Source: Halobaculum sp. MBLA0143
GTDB taxonomy: Archaea; Halobacteriota; Halobacteria; Halobacteriales; Haloferacaceae
DNA length: 64,000 nt
Direction: 5' to 3'
Assembly (NCBI RefSeq): GCF_041361465.1
Contig: NZ_JBGKAC010000001.1
Span: 1,240,001-1,304,000, forward strand
Below are positions 1 to 6,875 of this stretch, piece by piece; positions within the stretch are counted from its first letter, which is position 1; every line of letters begins with the position of its first letter. A program made the position numbers and the translations under genes. The notes beneath the pieces are model-generated. The model saw nothing but the letters and a program-made list of their open reading frames with translations, searched no databases and was not told where the DNA came from.

Positions 1-2456
1 GCGCCGTCGCCGTGACACCGGAGCCGGACGTCTTCGACCGGCGCGTCACCGGTGTTGACGACCGTCAACGAGGGGTTGTCCCCGCCGGTCAGCGAGTCGA
101 CGGCCAGCCCGGACGGGCCGTCGTCCGTCGCCAGTCGCGGCGCGAGCGTGTCGAGACGCCGACGCTCGCCGTCGACGACGAGGTTCAACTGCGCCGGCAC
201 CGCCGTCTTCGAGTCGACGCTCGGCAGCGACTGCGACGCGACCGTGCCGTCGAACGGACACTCGAACTCGAACGGCTCCGGCTGTGAGTCCAGTGTCACT
301 CCCTCCACCCGGCCGGTCACGCCGTCGTCGCCGTCGGCCGCGACACACAGCTTCGGCCCGTCGTCGCCGACCGTCCGCCAGACGTACGGGACGACCGGTC
401 CGTCGGAGGCCGTCAGGTCGACGGCGCTCGTCGACACCCGGTCGCCGTCGACCGCGACGGACAACGGCGGCAGTCGCTCGTCTCGGTAGACGACGACCCG
501 CCGGGTGCCGACCGCCCGCGGCTCCAACGGCAGCGTCGTGTCGTCGTCCAACGGCCGTTCGAGCGTCGCCGTCCGGTCGGCCCCGTCCGTCGACCGGGCC
601 TGGAGTCGGTCCGTGACCGCGACCCCAGCCCAGGCGTCCGTCTTCGCTACCGACCGCTCGACCGTCACCGGCGGACCCGACGCCAGCGTGTCGCCGGTGG
701 CCGCCGACGCGGGGTCGTTGGCTGGCGCCGACGCGGCATCGTCGGTCGTCGCGGCAGCGCCGGTCGCCGTCGCGGTAGGGTCTGTCGTCGCCGCAGCGAC
801 GTCGCCCGTCGGCCGCCGTCGTCCGCGCGTGTCCGCGACGGCCGGGACGACCCCGGGGTCGAGCGTGAGCCGTGCGTTCGCCGTCTCCGTCGCCGCCTCG
901 ACGATGCGTCGCTCCGGGTCGACGGACGGGAGCCGCCAGCACAGACTGCCGGCCGGCGGGAGCGACAGCTCCCGGGTGACCCGGTCGTCGGCCGACGGGA
1001 GTCCCTGGACGACGAGTCGGTCGGTCGTCGGACAGTCGACGCGGCTCTCGACGGTCACCTCGGCGTACCCAGTCTCGTCGGCCGACGCCACGTCGACCGA
1101 CAACGGCTGTTCCGGCACCGCAACGTCAACCGTGCGCTCGCCGAACTTGTCGAGCGTGACGGTCACGCCGTCGACGGGCGGGTCGAGGACCGCCTCGACC
1201 GTGACCGTGTCGCCGGCCGGTACCCGGTCGATCTGGGAGTCTGCGACGTACCCCCCCTCCACCGGCGTGTCCGTCGCGTTCGACACCTCGACGGCGACCG
1301 TCACTCGACCGTCGGTCACACCGACCGGCTCGCCGGTGACGCTCGCCGTCTCCGTCGACTCCCGGACGGTGAGACTCGTCTCGTCGACGGTGCCGTCGCC
1401 GTCCGACAGCCGGACGGTCACCTCACCGGCAGACAGCTCTCGGAGTTCGAACTCTCGGGTGAGACTGTCGCCCGCCCCCAGCGACAACGGGACCGGGCCG
1501 CCGGCGAACGTCACCCCCTCGCCGGTCAGCTGGACGGTGTCGTCCACCGGCACGTCGCCGTCGTTGCCGACGGCGACCGGCAGCGTCGCCGCCGTCTCGT
1601 CGACGGACGCGGCCGGCACGGACACGGACAGGTCCGCGCCGGCGTCGCTGCTGGGCCGGAACACGCCCGCGGTACCGCCGGCCACCACACAGACGACGGA
1701 ACCGTCTGTCGACGGCACGACCGTTCCGTCGGGCGACAGCCCGGTGACGGGGGTCCGGTCGCCGTCCGGACGCAACGCCGCGAGTTCACCGGCCGTCTCA
1801 CACAACAGCCACTCCGTTCCGTTGGACGCCAGCCAGTCGACGCCGGCGTCCTCGCTCCACTGTCGCCGCCCGTCCTCGTACGCGACCGCCGACCCGTCCG
1901 CGAGCACGGCGAACAGGCGACCGTCCAACAGCCCGACCCGTTCCACGGCACCGTCCAGCTGGACCGGCTCCCGCGGCTCACCGTCGACGATCCGGGTGAA
2001 GGAGGTGAAGCTGGCGACGGCCACCGTCCCGTCGCCCGCGACTACGGTCGTCTCCCCGGGGGCGTCGGCGTGGGGGGTCGCCAGTCGTCGCCGTTCCGTC
2101 CCGGTGTCGCCTCGGAGCCAGACGAGTTCGTCGTCGACGGTCTCGACGACCACGCCACGCTCGGTCAGGCCGGCCACCAGCCCGACCGGCTCCAATCCCG
2201 TCGCCTCCCAGCGGCGACTCCCGCCGGTCCCGTAGGCCGTCACCGTCCCGTCGGCGAGCACGTACACGTCCCGCCCGGCGGCGACGTCGGCGACCGGCGT
2301 GCCGGGGCGCCGGAGGGTGAACTGCCCCTCGCTGTCGACGTACCGCACCTGTCCGTTCGGCTCGGCGAGCACGACCCCGTCGGCACCCCCGTCGGCCGCC
2401 GCGACCGTGCCGTGCTCGAACGCCGACTGGCGAGCGAAGGCGACGGGCTCGGTCAC
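1..2456 (-). CDS. Propeller/Ig-like repeat protein, partial (C-terminus beyond left edge)
   Basis: An open frame runs from a GTG at 2456 to the window edge, 818 codons without a stop. The GTG overlaps the TGA of the upstream AAA+ ATPase gene in a GTGA tetranucleotide, so the two are translationally coupled. Residues about 1-270 contain short strand-like units with recurring DGT, DG and aromatic positions, suggesting a beta-propeller of the PQQ/quinoprotein kind. Residues about 275-560 look like successive Ig/CARDB-type domains (for example NDGDVPVDDTVQLTG and VSNATDTPVEGGYV). A Thr/Ala/Asp-rich linker near residues 555-600 precedes more beta-rich sequence. No signal peptide or membrane segment is visible in the part seen, so it may be cytoplasmic and work with the ATPase. 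Function unknown. The frame is secure because of its acidic composition and coupling; the domain names are inference. Confidence 0.8.
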   Translation of the reverse strand, partial: MTEPVAFARQSAFEHGTVAAADGGADGVVLAEPNGQVRYVDSEGQFTLRRPGTPVADVAAGRDVYVLADGTVTAYGTGGSRRWEATGLEPVGLVAGLTERGVVVETVDDELVWLRGDTGTERRRLATPHADAPGETTVVAGDGTVAVASFTSFTRIVDGEPREPVQLDGAVERVGLLDGRLFAVLADGSAVAYEDGRRQWSEDAGVDWLASNGTEWLLCETAGELAALRPDGDRTPVTGLSPDGTVVPSTDGSVVCVVAGGTAGVFRPSSDAGADLSVSVPAASVDETAATLPVAVGNDGDVPVDDTVQLTGEGVTFAGGPVPLSLGAGDSLTREFELRELSAGEVTVRLSDGDGTVDETSLTVRESTETASVTGEPVGVTDGRVTVAVEVSNATDTPVEGGYVADSQIDRVPAGDTVTVEAVLDPPVDGVTVTLDKFGERTVDVAVPEQPLSVDVASADETGYAEVTVESRVDCPTTDRLVVQGLPSADDRVTRELSLPPAGSLCWRLPSVDPERRIVEAATETANARLTLDPGVVPAVADTRGRRRPTGDVAAATTDPTATATGAAATTDDAASAPANDPASAATGDTLASGPPVTVERSVAKTDAWAGVAVTDRLQARSTDGADRTATLERPLDDDTTLPLEPRAVGTRRVVVYRDERLPPLSVAVDGDRVSTSAVDLTASDGPVVPYVWRTVGDDGPKLCVAADGDDGVTGRVEGVTLDSQPEPFEFECPFDGTVASQSLPSVDSKTAVPAQLNLVVDGERRRLDTLAPRLATDDGPSGLAVDSLTGGDNPSLTVVNTGDAPVEDVRLRCHGDG

Positions 2457-4027
2457 GACTCCCCGCCGCCCCGGAGCATCCCCAACTCCTGCGCCTGTTG
2501 TTCCACGTACTCTTTCATCTCCGGGAACCCCTCCAGCTCCTGGGCCTGCTTCATCACGCTGGAGACGTACTGTCGTACCGTCTTCGGCTCCGTCTCCTCC
2601 AGCCGCGCGAGGAGGTACTCCGTGTCCGGCTGGATCGGGTCCCGGTCGTCCAAGGCGACGCTCTCGACGAGCTCCCGTTGGAGGTCGCTGCCGAGCACGC
2701 GGTCTGCGATCTCCGCGGGCGTGTAGCCGACCGACGCCTCACCCAGCTGCCGGCAGTCCACGTCGTCTCGCTCGGTGATCCGTCCCAACGAGGTCTCCCA
2801 CACCTCCGTCATCACGTCCGCGCCCGGCTGCGGGATGAACTGCTGGATCGGGAACCGCCGGGTCGCCGCCGGGTCGATCGAGAAGGGCATGTTGGTCGCG
2901 CCGATCACGAGGAGGTTGTCCTCCACGTCGTTCATCTGTTGGAGGAAGGCGTTCGTCAGCGCTCGCTCGTGTCGCTGGAGGTTGTCGTCCGACCGGTCCG
3001 GGATCAGCGTCTCCACCTCGTCGAAGAAGAGGACGGCGAACCCGCCGCTGGCGATCTCGTGGGCCTGGTCGAACGCCGCCTCGACGTTCTTCTCCGACTC
3101 GCCGGAGTACTTCGACACCACGTCGCTGCCCCGCACCTCCAGGAACACCACGTCGCCGTACTCCTCTTCGATGTCCGTCTCGTACTTCGCCTCGTGGGCG
3201 ATCGCCTCCGAGATCAGCGTCTTCCCACAGCCCGGCGGGCCGTACAGCATCATCCCGCCGCCGCGGTCGGCGAACTCGCGGCCGTAGCTCTCGACGACGG
3301 CGTCCCGGACTCGCGAGTCGAACAACGACAGCACCATCCGTGCCGTTCGTTTCACCTCGGAGAGTCCTGCCACGTCGTCCTCGAAGTTCTTCTCTGGAAC
3401 CGTCGGCTGGATGTTGATCGACGCCCCCTCGTCGCCACGGCCGCCGCCGTCACCGTCGGCGTCGTCACCGCCGCCTCCGCTCCCGCCCCCGTCCCAGCCG
3501 GAGCTCCGTCCGGCGTCGTCGGAGCCGTGAGCCGGCGTCGAACTGTCGGTCTCGAACTCGAACTCCGTCCCCTGTCCCACCATCACCGTCGGCTCGTACG
3601 GCTCGACATCGGTGACGGAGAACTCGACGACCTCGCTCCCGAGGTCGTACCGTTCCACGATCGGGTGTAACAACACCTCCCGATCCTTCAACACCGCTTC
3701 CAGCTTGTCGGCCGGCGTCCCGAGCGGGTTGATCGTCACCGATCCCGCCGGACGAACCTTCTTCGGCGACGGTAGCGAGTAGACGTAGAACGACTCCGTC
3801 CGGTCGATGCCGCCGAACAGCTCCGCGATCTCCGGCGCGATCTTGGCGTCGCTCCCGATGTTGCTGGCCACACGATCGTTCTCCGCATCGACCTGGAGCG
3901 TCACGTTGACGCCACAGTGCTCGATCCGGACGACCTCGTCGTCGGGGTTGATCTTACTCGCTCCCAACGTCAGGTGCGAGGTCGGTTGACTGTCCAACAC
4001 CACCGGTTCTAGGCTCAGTTTACTCAT
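2453..4027 (-). CDS. Single-module AAA+ ATPase with Cdc48-like N-domain
   Basis: 524 residues. Residues about 20-160 resemble the substrate-binding N-domain of Cdc48/VAT (double-psi barrel plus a second beta domain), including a KKVRPAGSVTINP stretch and a terminal TVMVGQGTEFEFE strand. A Gly/Asp linker (about 160-205) follows. The AAA+ core has Walker A GPPGCGKT (263-270), a pore-loop region around KYSGESEKNV, Walker B VLFFDEVE (332-339), sensor-1 GATN (376-379) and an arginine pair RR at 390-391. Classical Cdc48 has two AAA modules; this one has one, followed by a lid and a helical tail. Known relatives unfold or remodel proteins; the substrate here is unknown, and the operon partners are obvious candidates for adaptors. 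Fourth gene of a five-gene minus-strand operon, 55 nt after the preceding gene and overlapping the next by 4 nt. Confidence 0.88.
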   Translation of the reverse strand: MSKLSLEPVVLDSQPTSHLTLGASKINPDDEVVRIEHCGVNVTLQVDAENDRVASNIGSDAKIAPEIAELFGGIDRTESFYVYSLPSPKKVRPAGSVTINPLGTPADKLEAVLKDREVLLHPIVERYDLGSEVVEFSVTDVEPYEPTVMVGQGTEFEFETDSSTPAHGSDDAGRSSGWDGGGSGGGGDDADGDGGGRGDEGASINIQPTVPEKNFEDDVAGLSEVKRTARMVLSLFDSRVRDAVVESYGREFADRGGGMMLYGPPGCGKTLISEAIAHEAKYETDIEEEYGDVVFLEVRGSDVVSKYSGESEKNVEAAFDQAHEIASGGFAVLFFDEVETLIPDRSDDNLQRHERALTNAFLQQMNDVEDNLLVIGATNMPFSIDPAATRRFPIQQFIPQPGADVMTEVWETSLGRITERDDVDCRQLGEASVGYTPAEIADRVLGSDLQRELVESVALDDRDPIQPDTEYLLARLEETEPKTVRQYVSSVMKQAQELEGFPEMKEYVEQQAQELGMLRGGGES

Positions 4028-4082
4028 GTTGTCACCTCTCCGTCCTGTCTCGTGGCGAACCCTCCGCTCTCGTCTCGGTCCG

Positions 4083-4718
4083 TCACGAGAACTCCGCCTC
4101 CGTGTTTGCCGCCAGTGTTCGCTTCAGGAACGCCTGGAGCTGTTCGAACTCCGCAGCGACGAGCGCGTCCGGCGGGTCGAGCCAGAGAACGACTGCCGGC
4201 TGCCACGCGAGCAGCGCCGCCGTGTCACAGCAGGCGCGTTCGAGCCGTTCGAACGCGTCGGCGGCACGCGGCTCGCCGACCGCCTCGAGTCGGCGCCCGA
4301 CGCTCCGGAGCCCCTCGGCGGCCGCTTCCAGCCGCTGGGCGACCCACGGGAACACCACGTACCAGTTCGCAGCAGCCGGTCCCTCGCGGCCCAACGGAAG
4401 CGTGACCTCGTCCCCGGATTGGACCGCCCGCCCCGCCGCAGTGGCGGTCTCGACTGCGTCTGTCGGCGGCTCACCGTCGACGAACCCGTCCAGTATCCGT
4501 CCGACGGCGCGGTCGACCGACTCCGGCGCGGTCTCCGACAGCGACGGGAACCAGTCGACGGCCGAGAGTGTCTCCGACAGCCCGAGCAACGCTCCGTCGA
4601 CGGCGTCGACCGCGGTCCACGGTGACGCGGTCCCCGGGCGGCGCGCCGTGCGGAGGCGAGACACCTCCGCCTCGATCGTCCTTACGGCCTCGGTCCACCT
4701 GTCCGTACACACCTGCAT
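4083..4718 (-). CDS. Small helical protein of the AAA+ operon, unknown function
   Basis: 211 residues from ATG at 4718, 7 nt after the stop of the coiled-coil gene upstream. It looks entirely alpha-helical, with several Trp residues (for example AANWYVVFPWVAQRLE near residue 125 and LLAWQPAVVLWLD near 175) and no recognisable catalytic motif, signal peptide or membrane helix. The ATPase gene follows after 55 nt, the largest gap in this operon. I do not recognise the family. An adaptor or structural subunit is plausible only by context. Confidence 0.8.
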   Translation of the reverse strand: MQVCTDRWTEAVRTIEAEVSRLRTARRPGTASPWTAVDAVDGALLGLSETLSAVDWFPSLSETAPESVDRAVGRILDGFVDGEPPTDAVETATAAGRAVQSGDEVTLPLGREGPAAANWYVVFPWVAQRLEAAAEGLRSVGRRLEAVGEPRAADAFERLERACCDTAALLAWQPAVVLWLDPPDALVAAEFEQLQAFLKRTLAANTEAEFS

Positions 4719-4725
4719 CTGTTCG

Positions 4726-5736
4726 TCACTGTGCCGTCTGTTGGGTCTCGACGTCGCTGAGCTGTTCGGCCTGCTCGGTGGCCGCCTCCATCTCCTCGTC
4801 CGTGCCGAGGCTGTCGAAGAACTCGTCGTCGTCCTCCTCTTCCATCTTCTCTTTGGGGTCCATCATCCCGCTGAGCGACGAGAGGAAGCCGGCGTACTGC
4901 TCGGACAGCTCCACCAGGTCCTCCGGGAAGATCGCCTCCCCGAGCGCGAGCTCTCTGAAGTTCTCCCGGTGGTCGATCATGATCCCGCGCATGGCGTCGA
5001 ACTGCTCCATCACGCGACCCAGTTCCTTCACACGGTCGGAGCCGGGGCCCAGCTCGGGACCCTGTGCCTCCTCCATGTTCTCGTAGAAGTGGTACTGCTC
5101 GCGGAGGTGGTCGAACTCCTGTTTGTCCGCCTCGTTCAGGTCCGACGGCTTCCCGTCGCCGACCAGATTCTCCATCTTCTGGCGGAGCTCCTGTTGTCGT
5201 TCTTCGGGGTTCACGTCGGAACTGCGCCGGTCCGTCTCCGCCTCGCGGTTCTCGAACCGTTCTTTCGCCTGCTCGACGCGGTCGTGGGCGTAGTCGATCC
5301 GTTCGATACAGGTGTCGAACATCGCCGCCCAGTTGTTGTACATCTTGGTGTACTCCGTCTCGGAGAGCTCGTCGAACGGCTTCAGGACGGTCACACCGTC
5401 GTTGTCGGAGGCCTCGACGATGTTCTGATCGTCGAGGTAGTCGATCACCGCCTCCGCCTGCCACTCCGTGTCGGCGAACTGGTCGTCCGACTCGACCAAC
5501 GCGGAGACCGCCTGCTCACGGTCGATCTGTGCTTCACCCTGGTCGCTGATGTCGAGCGCGTTCCCCAGGTCGTGGTCCATCAGTTGGCTGACGAGCCGCT
5601 CCCAGTTGGCCTCCTCCTCGGCGTCATCCTTCCGCTGTACGATACTCCCGTCGAACCTGACGGCCTCGTCCCGGCTGCTCCTCGGAACTGCCGTCACCAT
5701 TCCGTCCGATTGTTTGAAGTCGTCGAACTTCGTCAT
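4726..5736 (-). CDS. Acidic coiled-coil protein of the AAA+ operon, unknown function
   Basis: 336 residues. ATG at 5736 overlaps the stop of the upstream gene by 4 nt. The N-terminal 120 residues include a possible winged-helix-like fold (DREQAVSALVESDDQF, then AVIDYLDDQNIVEASDNDG). Residues about 135-270 are long charged helices likely to form coiled coils. The tail is very acidic (MEEEDDDEFFDSLGTDEE) and ends in Gln/Glu-rich sequence. No enzymatic motif is visible. Translational coupling on one side and a 7-nt gap on the other make it part of one transcript with the AAA+ ATPase. It may be a scaffold or substrate adaptor; that is inference. Confidence 0.82.
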   Translation of the reverse strand: MTKFDDFKQSDGMVTAVPRSSRDEAVRFDGSIVQRKDDAEEEANWERLVSQLMDHDLGNALDISDQGEAQIDREQAVSALVESDDQFADTEWQAEAVIDYLDDQNIVEASDNDGVTVLKPFDELSETEYTKMYNNWAAMFDTCIERIDYAHDRVEQAKERFENREAETDRRSSDVNPEERQQELRQKMENLVGDGKPSDLNEADKQEFDHLREQYHFYENMEEAQGPELGPGSDRVKELGRVMEQFDAMRGIMIDHRENFRELALGEAIFPEDLVELSEQYAGFLSSLSGMMDPKEKMEEEDDDEFFDSLGTDEEMEAATEQAEQLSDVETQQTAQ

Positions 5737-6875
5737 ACGTTCATCTCCTCGTCGATCAGGTCCGAGACGCGCTGTCGGACCTCGTCACGCAGATACTCGT
5801 TGGCCGGTTCCGTCGACGCCATCCGGAGCTCCTCGATCTCCGGTTCGACCTCCTGTTTGAGGCTGCTCGCCGTGTGTGCTCCCTCCTTGTTCACCACCGG
5901 TTGGACCATCGACTCGGCTCTCCCTGCCACCTCCGCGTCGACCTCGTCGGTGTGTTTGGCGATCGGGACACGCCCGTCGGTCTCCTCGATCCCGGTGCCC
6001 GACTCGAACCACTCGGCGACGTGCTTGACGATGTCGTCCTGATCGAGGTCCAGCCCGGGCCGGCTGGACCTGACGGCCGCGAGCACGTTCGAGTAGCTCT
6101 CGATCTGGTCGACGAGCAACGACCGGTACTCCGTCTTCGGCATCGCGTAGCCGGCGTCCTGGAAGGCAGTGACCACCTCCTCCTCGATACCCTCCCAGAG
6201 CCACCGAGCGAACTCGTCGACGTCGTCTCTGACCAGGTACTCCCCGTCGAGGTCGAGGATGTACCCCTCCGACTCCAGGTAGTTGATCACGTCCGACACT
6301 GCCGTCACCGAGATGGCGTCCTCCAGGTTCTCGTGGGTGATCCGACCGTTCATCCCCTCGCTGGCCAGCTTGTCGTTGAGATCTTCACCCCGGCCGTCGA
6401 CCCGTTCTTTCAACTGGGGACCGATCGTGTAGTAGTCCCTGGCGCCGGCCGCGATGCGCAACACGAGCCCACGCTCGTTGTCTTGCAGCTCCTCGACGAA
6501 GAACGAGACGTCGTCGAGCGCGAGGTCGAACTGTCTGCGGAAGTCCTCCGCAGTGGCGACCAGGTCGTGGTCGAACAGCTCCTGTAGTTCGTCCGCAACA
6601 CCCATGTCGAGCCCCTTGTCGAACGGGTCGACGTAGAAGACGCCCGGTCTGATCCGTTCGAACGGGTAGTCCTCTGCCGACGCCATCTCCCTGAGCTCCT
6701 GTTTGATGTCGGTGTTCGACACCGACCCAGAGTGGACGAGACCACTGCCCTCGGACTCGTAGGCGTCCTTGATCGCCTGCTTCTCTCTGTCGACGTACAC
6801 GAATCCGTAGTTCTCCTCGGCGACGGAACGACACGCGTCCGAGAGGACATCGTTGTCGACTGGCCGTATCGGCAT
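5733..6875 (-). CDS. Tandem winged-helix-like protein, first gene of the AAA+ operon
   Basis: 380 residues from ATG at 6875, about 29 nt from a TATA-like CTTTTAG on the minus strand. Several segments have the helix-helix-helix-beta-wing pattern of winged helices: around residues 10-80 (ending in ERIRPGVFYVDP), 85-155 (LLDH-like HDLVATAEDF to DYYTIGPQL), and 165-230 (ITHENLEDAISV to GYILDLDGEYLVRDD). The C-terminal part is helical. Tandem winged helices of this kind occur in PCI-domain proteins and in the UFM1 ligase UFL1, but the resemblance is by eye and could be convergent. No DNA-binding charge pattern stands out because the protein is acidic. It probably brings a protein-interaction surface to the downstream ATPase. 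Confidence 0.82.
   Translation of the reverse strand: MPIRPVDNDVLSDACRSVAEENYGFVYVDREKQAIKDAYESEGSGLVHSGSVSNTDIKQELREMASAEDYPFERIRPGVFYVDPFDKGLDMGVADELQELFDHDLVATAEDFRRQFDLALDDVSFFVEELQDNERGLVLRIAAGARDYYTIGPQLKERVDGRGEDLNDKLASEGMNGRITHENLEDAISVTAVSDVINYLESEGYILDLDGEYLVRDDVDEFARWLWEGIEEEVVTAFQDAGYAMPKTEYRSLLVDQIESYSNVLAAVRSSRPGLDLDQDDIVKHVAEWFESGTGIEETDGRVPIAKHTDEVDAEVAGRAESMVQPVVNKEGAHTASSLKQEVEPEIEELRMASTEPANEYLRDEVRQRVSDLIDEEMNV

Follow-up and report, generated by a model that had tools for sequence, protein, structure and literature searches.

A ten-gene haloarchaeal locus with a Vps4-clade ATPase and a divergent tubulin-like GTPase, probably a copy of the Halo_adaptin ESCRT-like system

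A stretch of 64,000 nucleotides from Halobaculum sp. MBLA0143 (contig NZ_JBGKAC010000001.1, positions 1,240,001 to 1,304,000 of the forward strand; hereafter, the window) carries at its beginning an operon, genes A–E, which is built around an AAA+ ATPase (D) and is accompanied by winged-helix, coiled-coil, helical and propeller proteins. The locus is probably a copy of the Halo_adaptin system, a membrane-remodelling and cargo-sorting apparatus resembling the endosomal sorting complexes required for transport (ESCRT). The coordinates (Table 1) agree with the original prediction of five co-directional minus-strand genes, with 4-nt overlaps at the A/B and D/E junctions and gaps of 7 nt and 55 nt at the B/C and C/D junctions, respectively. 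The predicted operon is real, but it represents one half of a ten-gene locus, the other half of which lies beyond the window. The window edge truncates gene E, which ends 259 bp beyond it, and the full gene occupies L011:11742-14456 of the extended locus (L011), in which the window position equals the L011 position minus 12000. A second block of five genes (F, G, H, X and I) follows immediately after E on the other strand and is transcribed towards it.

The conservation of the locus was evaluated in 242 Halobacteria genomes. Gene A was present in 24 of these (13 of 74 genera), as a single copy in each, and the order A-B-C-D-E was identical in all 24 carriers and in the named-species records with long enough contigs, so the five-gene arrangement is not due to chance; joint conservation of the five genes across Halobacteria had been named beforehand as a check on the original prediction. 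All ten genes were found in the 24 carriers, except that C was absent once, at a contig end, and F once, where the stretch examined ended. G (E below 1e-80) and I were detected in 26 genomes, namely the 24 carriers of A plus two others (G042 and G048), and a fragment of I was found in G205. G accompanied A in every one of the 24 carriers (Fisher p 4e-31, not corrected for kinship). The two halves were unlinked in three genomes of one genus (g4, including G061 and G098), being separated by about 260 kb in one, by 80 kb in another and placed on different contigs in the third, with all ten genes kept. This near-perfect co-inheritance, even when the halves are unlinked, suggests that the tubulin-like and ESCRT-like parts work together. 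In a species-wide scan, A was found in haloarchaea only, namely Halobaculum, Halorussus, Halopenitus, Natrinema, Halobiforma, Halorubrum, Haloarchaeobius, Natronomonas, Salinarchaeum, Halovenus and unclassified Haloferacaceae metagenome-assembled genomes (MAGs). No convincing A was found outside Halobacteria among 247 further genomes of the phylum; one further match in this phylum sample (G026, same family) had an E value of 4e-4 and covered just 81 C-terminal positions. The MAG of Haloferacaceae archaeon LUM.70 contained two differing copies of A on separate contigs (L126:1699-2820 and L139:1550-2191) and is possibly a mixed bin.

Table 1. Features of the ten-gene locus. Positions are those of the window unless prefixed with L011; TM, transmembrane.
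Feature	Position	Strand	Description
Candidate TATA-like element CTTTTAGG	6907-6900	minus	25-32 nt 5' of gene A start codon; judged by eye
Gene A	6875-5733	minus	380 aa, first in operon; tandem array of four winged-helix units, with additional helices
Gene B	5736-4726	minus	336 aa, beta region at the N-terminus, winged helix at ~45-118 followed by long helices/coiled coil
Gene C	4718-4083	minus	211-aa helical protein, directly upstream of ATPase gene D
Gene D	4027-2453	minus	524-aa AAA+ ATPase: Cdc48/VAT-like N-domain ~1-160, Gly-rich linker, one AAA module ~215-450
Gene E	2456 to window start	minus	904 aa, PQQ/WD40-type propeller plus Ig-like (CARDB), without signal peptide
Gene F	L011:954-3035	plus-side block, convergent	693 aa, two N-terminal TM helices plus coiled coil
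Gene G	L011:3091-4299	plus-side block, convergent	402 aa, divergent FtsZ/tubulin-like GTPase
Gene H	L011:4306-7167	plus-side block, convergent	953 aa, signal peptide, central TM
Gene X	L011:7192-8271	plus-side block, convergent	359 aa, signal peptide, C-terminal TM
Gene I	L011:8268-11663	plus-side block, convergent	1131 aa, signal peptide, Ig-like repeats, C-terminal TM

The ATPase D contains a single AAA module, and its Walker A (GPPGCGKT), Walker B (FFDE, within LFFDE), sensor-1 asparagine (in GATN) and RR pair are invariant across 15 orthologues. Its arginine-finger and pore-loop motifs are conserved as well, the pore loop reading SKYSGESEK in the window copy. In a tree with a long stem and just one Vps4 reference, the AAA domain of D grouped with that reference, an MIT-containing Vps4 (L198; support 91/97), and the Cdc48 D1 and PAN-like domains fell elsewhere. 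HHalign matched 78 columns of the N-terminal part to Cdc48 N-domains (probability 75, E 2.6e-5), the score of 38 being well above the maximum of 19 reached by 40 shuffled control profiles. No match to the MIT domain was found in this genome. By its sequence, D is best classed as a Vps4-clade AAA+ ATPase with a single ring, an N-domain of the Cdc48/VAT type and no MIT: it shares its N-domain type with Cdc48/VAT, although Cdc48 has two AAA modules and D one, and it shares its AAA core with Vps4/CdvC, although Vps4 has an MIT domain and D none. The earlier idea of a dedicated, single-module Cdc48-like AAA+ machine was correct as to the single module and the N-domain, but the AAA core groups with Vps4 and not with Cdc48 D1/D2. 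A 255-aa protein consisting of a D-type N-domain and a coiled-coil tail, with no ATPase module, is encoded about 395 kb away (L012:7026-7793; G000:C1:847026-847793). As a component of the system this stand-alone paralogue was rejected, being found in this genome only; all other matches were D itself.

The AlphaFold2 (AF2) model of A showed a tandem winged-helix array at good confidence, the mean predicted local distance difference test (pLDDT) value being 87.9. The best Foldseek matches were UFL1 chains (E 1e-6, template modelling scores (TM-scores) of 0.22–0.29), and the top VIA-align match was the ESCRT-II chain 2zme_B (Z 9.1, root-mean-square deviation 5.9, 140 aligned), read as Vps36 from its residue numbers and tied with SelB and MarR winged helices. 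The model and both searches support the tandem winged helices foreseen for the first gene. A profile match of its C-terminal part to PDB sequences of glucose-6-phosphate dehydrogenase (E 1e-4) was judged spurious. The AF2 model of B had a mean pLDDT of 68.6, higher in the N-terminal domain and with a low-confidence helical part. No specific fold was found for B among PDB folds, the matches being generic coiled coils, with weak and unusable Vipp1/PspA chains among them, and a match of B to WXG100 was not significant (E 0.03). C was found to be fast-evolving, with no relatives detected, and scans of Pfam, NCBIfam and PADLOC returned nothing significant for A, B or C. The propeller/Ig nature anticipated for the long last gene was supported, as 5 of 10 orthologues of E had PQQ_2 propeller matches that passed the Pfam cut-off; E itself has Ig/CARDB-like parts, with CARDB just below the cut-off.

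In the second half of the locus, H, X and I each have a signal peptide, a large ectodomain and a TM segment, which is central in H and C-terminal in X and I. The tails that follow the TM segments of X and I are alike (LGDIL and ALGDFL), and a G-x-[FI]-[LV]-like motif is common to these short cytoplasmic tails in several genomes, being a possible docking signal. G scored above the Pfam Tubulin cut-off, with PF00091 as its sole match, and its nearest solved structures were haloarchaeal CetZ-type chains (4b46, E 5e-13), the entry 4b46 being a CetZ structure. The GEGG-type T1, the GGGTGNGS (T4) and the D..D pair of T7 are kept in 18 orthologues, and because these motifs are conserved, G should bind and hydrolyse GTP. 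G shares with CetZ the GTPase motifs and the nearest structure, but the C-terminal domain of CetZ was not recognised in it (PF21011 scored 11.8 bits at E 0.16, under the cut-off of 21.6), and in the G tree it stands on a long branch from the CetZ outgroup.

The operon had been considered a candidate undescribed system, but this was not borne out, since its gene order and content match the Halo_adaptin ESCRT system, which comparative genomics had predicted to be an ESCRT relative that sorts cargo or forms vesicles (Makarova et al. 2024, mBio 15:e00335-24, PMC10936438). In that work the system is marked by arCOGs 11740 and 11741 and by WP_014555335.1, and the gene directly upstream of the ATPase is proposed to be a derived ESCRT-III/PspA-like gene (PMC10936438). 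Common to both are a Vps4-like ATPase that lacks MIT and combines a single AAA module with a Cdc48/VAT-type N-domain, its AAA core lying on the Vps4 side; a proximal duplicated-winged-helix gene in first position (A), followed by a gene for a winged helix and a coiled coil (B); a propeller/Ig adaptin-like protein (E), the second such protein of the published system not being identified here; a CetZ-related tubulin-like protein (G); and further Ig proteins and a membrane protein (H, I, X and F). C occupies the position of the ESCRT-III-like gene, directly upstream of the ATPase, and no difference between the published system and the window copy was established. The ATPase, winged-helix, propeller and tubulin features were reproduced independently in this analysis. 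The ESCRT-III part rests on the published analysis and on gene position, because the PspA similarity of C was not reproduced. New with respect to PMC10936438 are the arrangement in two convergent five-gene blocks, the counts over 242 genomes, the unlinked halves and the absence of A-D beside FtsZl1 modules. In the literature searched, no other work was found to use the name Halo_adaptin, and no experiments on any member were found. To our knowledge, no experiment on any member of the system exists.

The gene content, motifs, topology and co-inheritance observed are best read as an ATP-driven remodeller of a winged-helix/coiled-coil scaffold that would act at the inner face of the membrane, linked to tubulin-like filaments and to the cell surface. 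G filaments may be anchored and organised beneath the membrane by F, which has two TM helices and a coiled coil in the cytoplasm, together with the domains and tails of H, X and I that lie inside the cell; the ectodomains of these three proteins would point to the cell surface. The propeller/Ig protein E would bind cargo or membrane partners, and A and B, through their winged helices and coiled coil, could bridge E or the membrane partners to C, which may polymerise. D, brought in via its N-domain, would then use its central pore to pull on the coiled-coil scaffold, either B or C and possibly G, and the resulting disassembly may drive vesicle budding or the sorting of surface proteins. The following points weigh against this interpretation. 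HHalign gave C a probability of 0.5 against haloarchaeal PspA and Pfam gave no Snf7/PspA match, so the ESCRT-defining polymer, an ESCRT-III assembly that the ATPase takes apart during membrane remodelling, is not demonstrated; when C, B and F were compared by HHalign with ESCRT-III/PspA proteins, using shuffled and reversed sequences as controls, none scored meaningfully above the controls. B matched coiled-coil hairpins only unspecifically. The tubulin-like half exists without A-D in three genomes and hence does not always need the ATPase.

The participation of G raises the question of whether D is mainly a remodeller of tubulin filaments, extracting G from membrane-tethered filaments to set cell shape or the position of surface complexes, with A, B, C and E as targeting adaptors. 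Katanin and spastin are Vps4-branch relatives that sever microtubules, and the place of D in the Vps4 branch, its aromatic pore loop, the CetZ relationship of G and the presence of G in each of the 24 genomes with A, unlinked cases included, are all compatible with such an activity. It was nevertheless considered unlikely, given that G persists with F, H, X, I and E but without D in G042 and G048, and that the N-domain of D is of the Cdc48 type and not MIT. The signal peptides, large ectodomains and TM segments of H, X and I could also indicate an apparatus for surface-protein secretion or envelope assembly, in which these proteins would form an export or S-layer-linked complex, D would be a cargo-feeding unfoldase and G a scaffold. 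Archaeal loci with Ig-like membrane proteins and AAA+ ATPases have been read as secretion complexes (PMC5898192); however, the AAA+ proteins of those loci are COG0714 (MoxR type) and are accompanied by a vWA protein, which is not the case here, and no channel-forming protein or protease was recognised among the ten genes, which makes this explanation slightly less probable still.

The Cdc48-type N-domain of D and the UFL1 matches of A would suit a Cdc48-like machine for protein quality control with a UFL1-like winged-helix scaffold. The comparison with UFL1, already raised as a weaker idea in the original prediction, holds as far as the tandem winged-helix architecture and the best Foldseek matches (E 1e-6) are concerned, but membership of A in UFL1 was not established, considering the low TM-scores (0.22–0.29) and the VIA-align ranking, which put the ESCRT-II chain Vps36 first, tied in Z with SelB and MarR winged helices, and did not single out UFL1. 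Neither UFM1 pathway genes nor a gene for a ubiquitin-like modifier, E1 or E2 were recognised among the ten, and such a machine would leave the membrane proteins and the tubulin-like gene unexplained, so that it appears very improbable. The least credible of the explanations considered is a defence system. The patchy spread (24 of 242 genomes) is what such a system might show, and D matched the profiles of IetA (E 1e-26) and TRIP13 (E 1e-18), and also EccA, but only the AAA module is covered by these matches, none of the ten genes has a recognised effector nuclease or toxin domain, and the neighbours in the window are housekeeping genes. Past a short divergent region 5' of gene A, the latter comprise a methyltransferase, a short-chain dehydrogenase, a QueD-like PTPS and a QueE-like radical SAM gene, the last two (window:8973-10248) being an ordinary pair of an archaeosine/queuosine-type pathway.

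Membrane remodelling of the Halo_adaptin type, the reading preferred here, has to account for the three genomes that retain the F-I half and E but lack A-D (G042, G048 and G205, the contig of the last retaining an I fragment only). In all three, genes for FtsZl1 and multi-TM membrane GTPase-like proteins adjoin the F-I/E half, upstream of E and on the same strand in G048 and G205 (L110:2453-9462 and L117:5309-12646, respectively) and beyond F in G042 (L116:2848-13079). FtsZl1 defines another system predicted to remodel membranes, in which a conserved gene neighbourhood encodes a tubulin-superfamily GTPase together with membrane proteins (Makarova and Koonin 2010, PMC2875224). A tubulin-superfamily GTPase beside membrane-protein genes is common to that system and the present locus, but G is a 402-aa CetZ-like protein without Tubulin_2 (PF13809), which the FtsZl1 of L110 matches, or the long C-terminal coiled coil of FtsZl1, and no FtsZl1-type membrane GTPase accompanies it. 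A second FtsZ-like match in G048 (L103) was dropped, as it sits among ribosomal genes. Among the 24 genomes with A-D, FtsZl1 was found in G173 only, on another contig (Fisher p 0.001 within carriers, a small sample). In the same genome, on a contig different from that of the ten-gene locus, a Cdc48-like AAA protein (613 aa) is encoded just upstream of FtsZl1 (L124:6889-12298).

The E tree cannot be explained by fewer than two independent events: G042 falls within the A-D carriers (SH-aLRT support of 99 in a quick tree), and G048 and G205 share a different branch; the G tree agreed on the placement of G042 with moderate support. These results suggest an exchange of engines on a common platform, although three genomes make this no more than a lead. 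We tentatively propose that F-G-H-X-I and E could form such a platform, serving two alternative engines, the ESCRT-like A-B-C-D or FtsZl1 with the membrane GTPase, which would have been exchanged at least twice (in G042, and in G048 with G205). In G081, the gene that immediately follows those for FtsZl1 and a membrane protein encodes an E-like propeller/Ig protein (L119:14929-18312), which suggests that E-type proteins also serve FtsZl1 systems.

As an instance, the locus is an ordinary copy of a described system, and its novelty, which lies in the exchange of partners, is modest. The carrier species of Halorubrum, Halobaculum and Natrinema are cultured, and the three genomes with the FtsZl1/GTPase module beside the platform offer a natural comparison of the two engines. 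Halo_adaptin is a predicted ESCRT relative in archaea that also divide with FtsZ and, with an ATPase that retains a Cdc48-type N-domain, has been proposed as a pointer to the origin of ESCRT protein sorting. If the exchange of engines is true, two separately predicted archaeal membrane-remodelling systems would be one exchangeable system.

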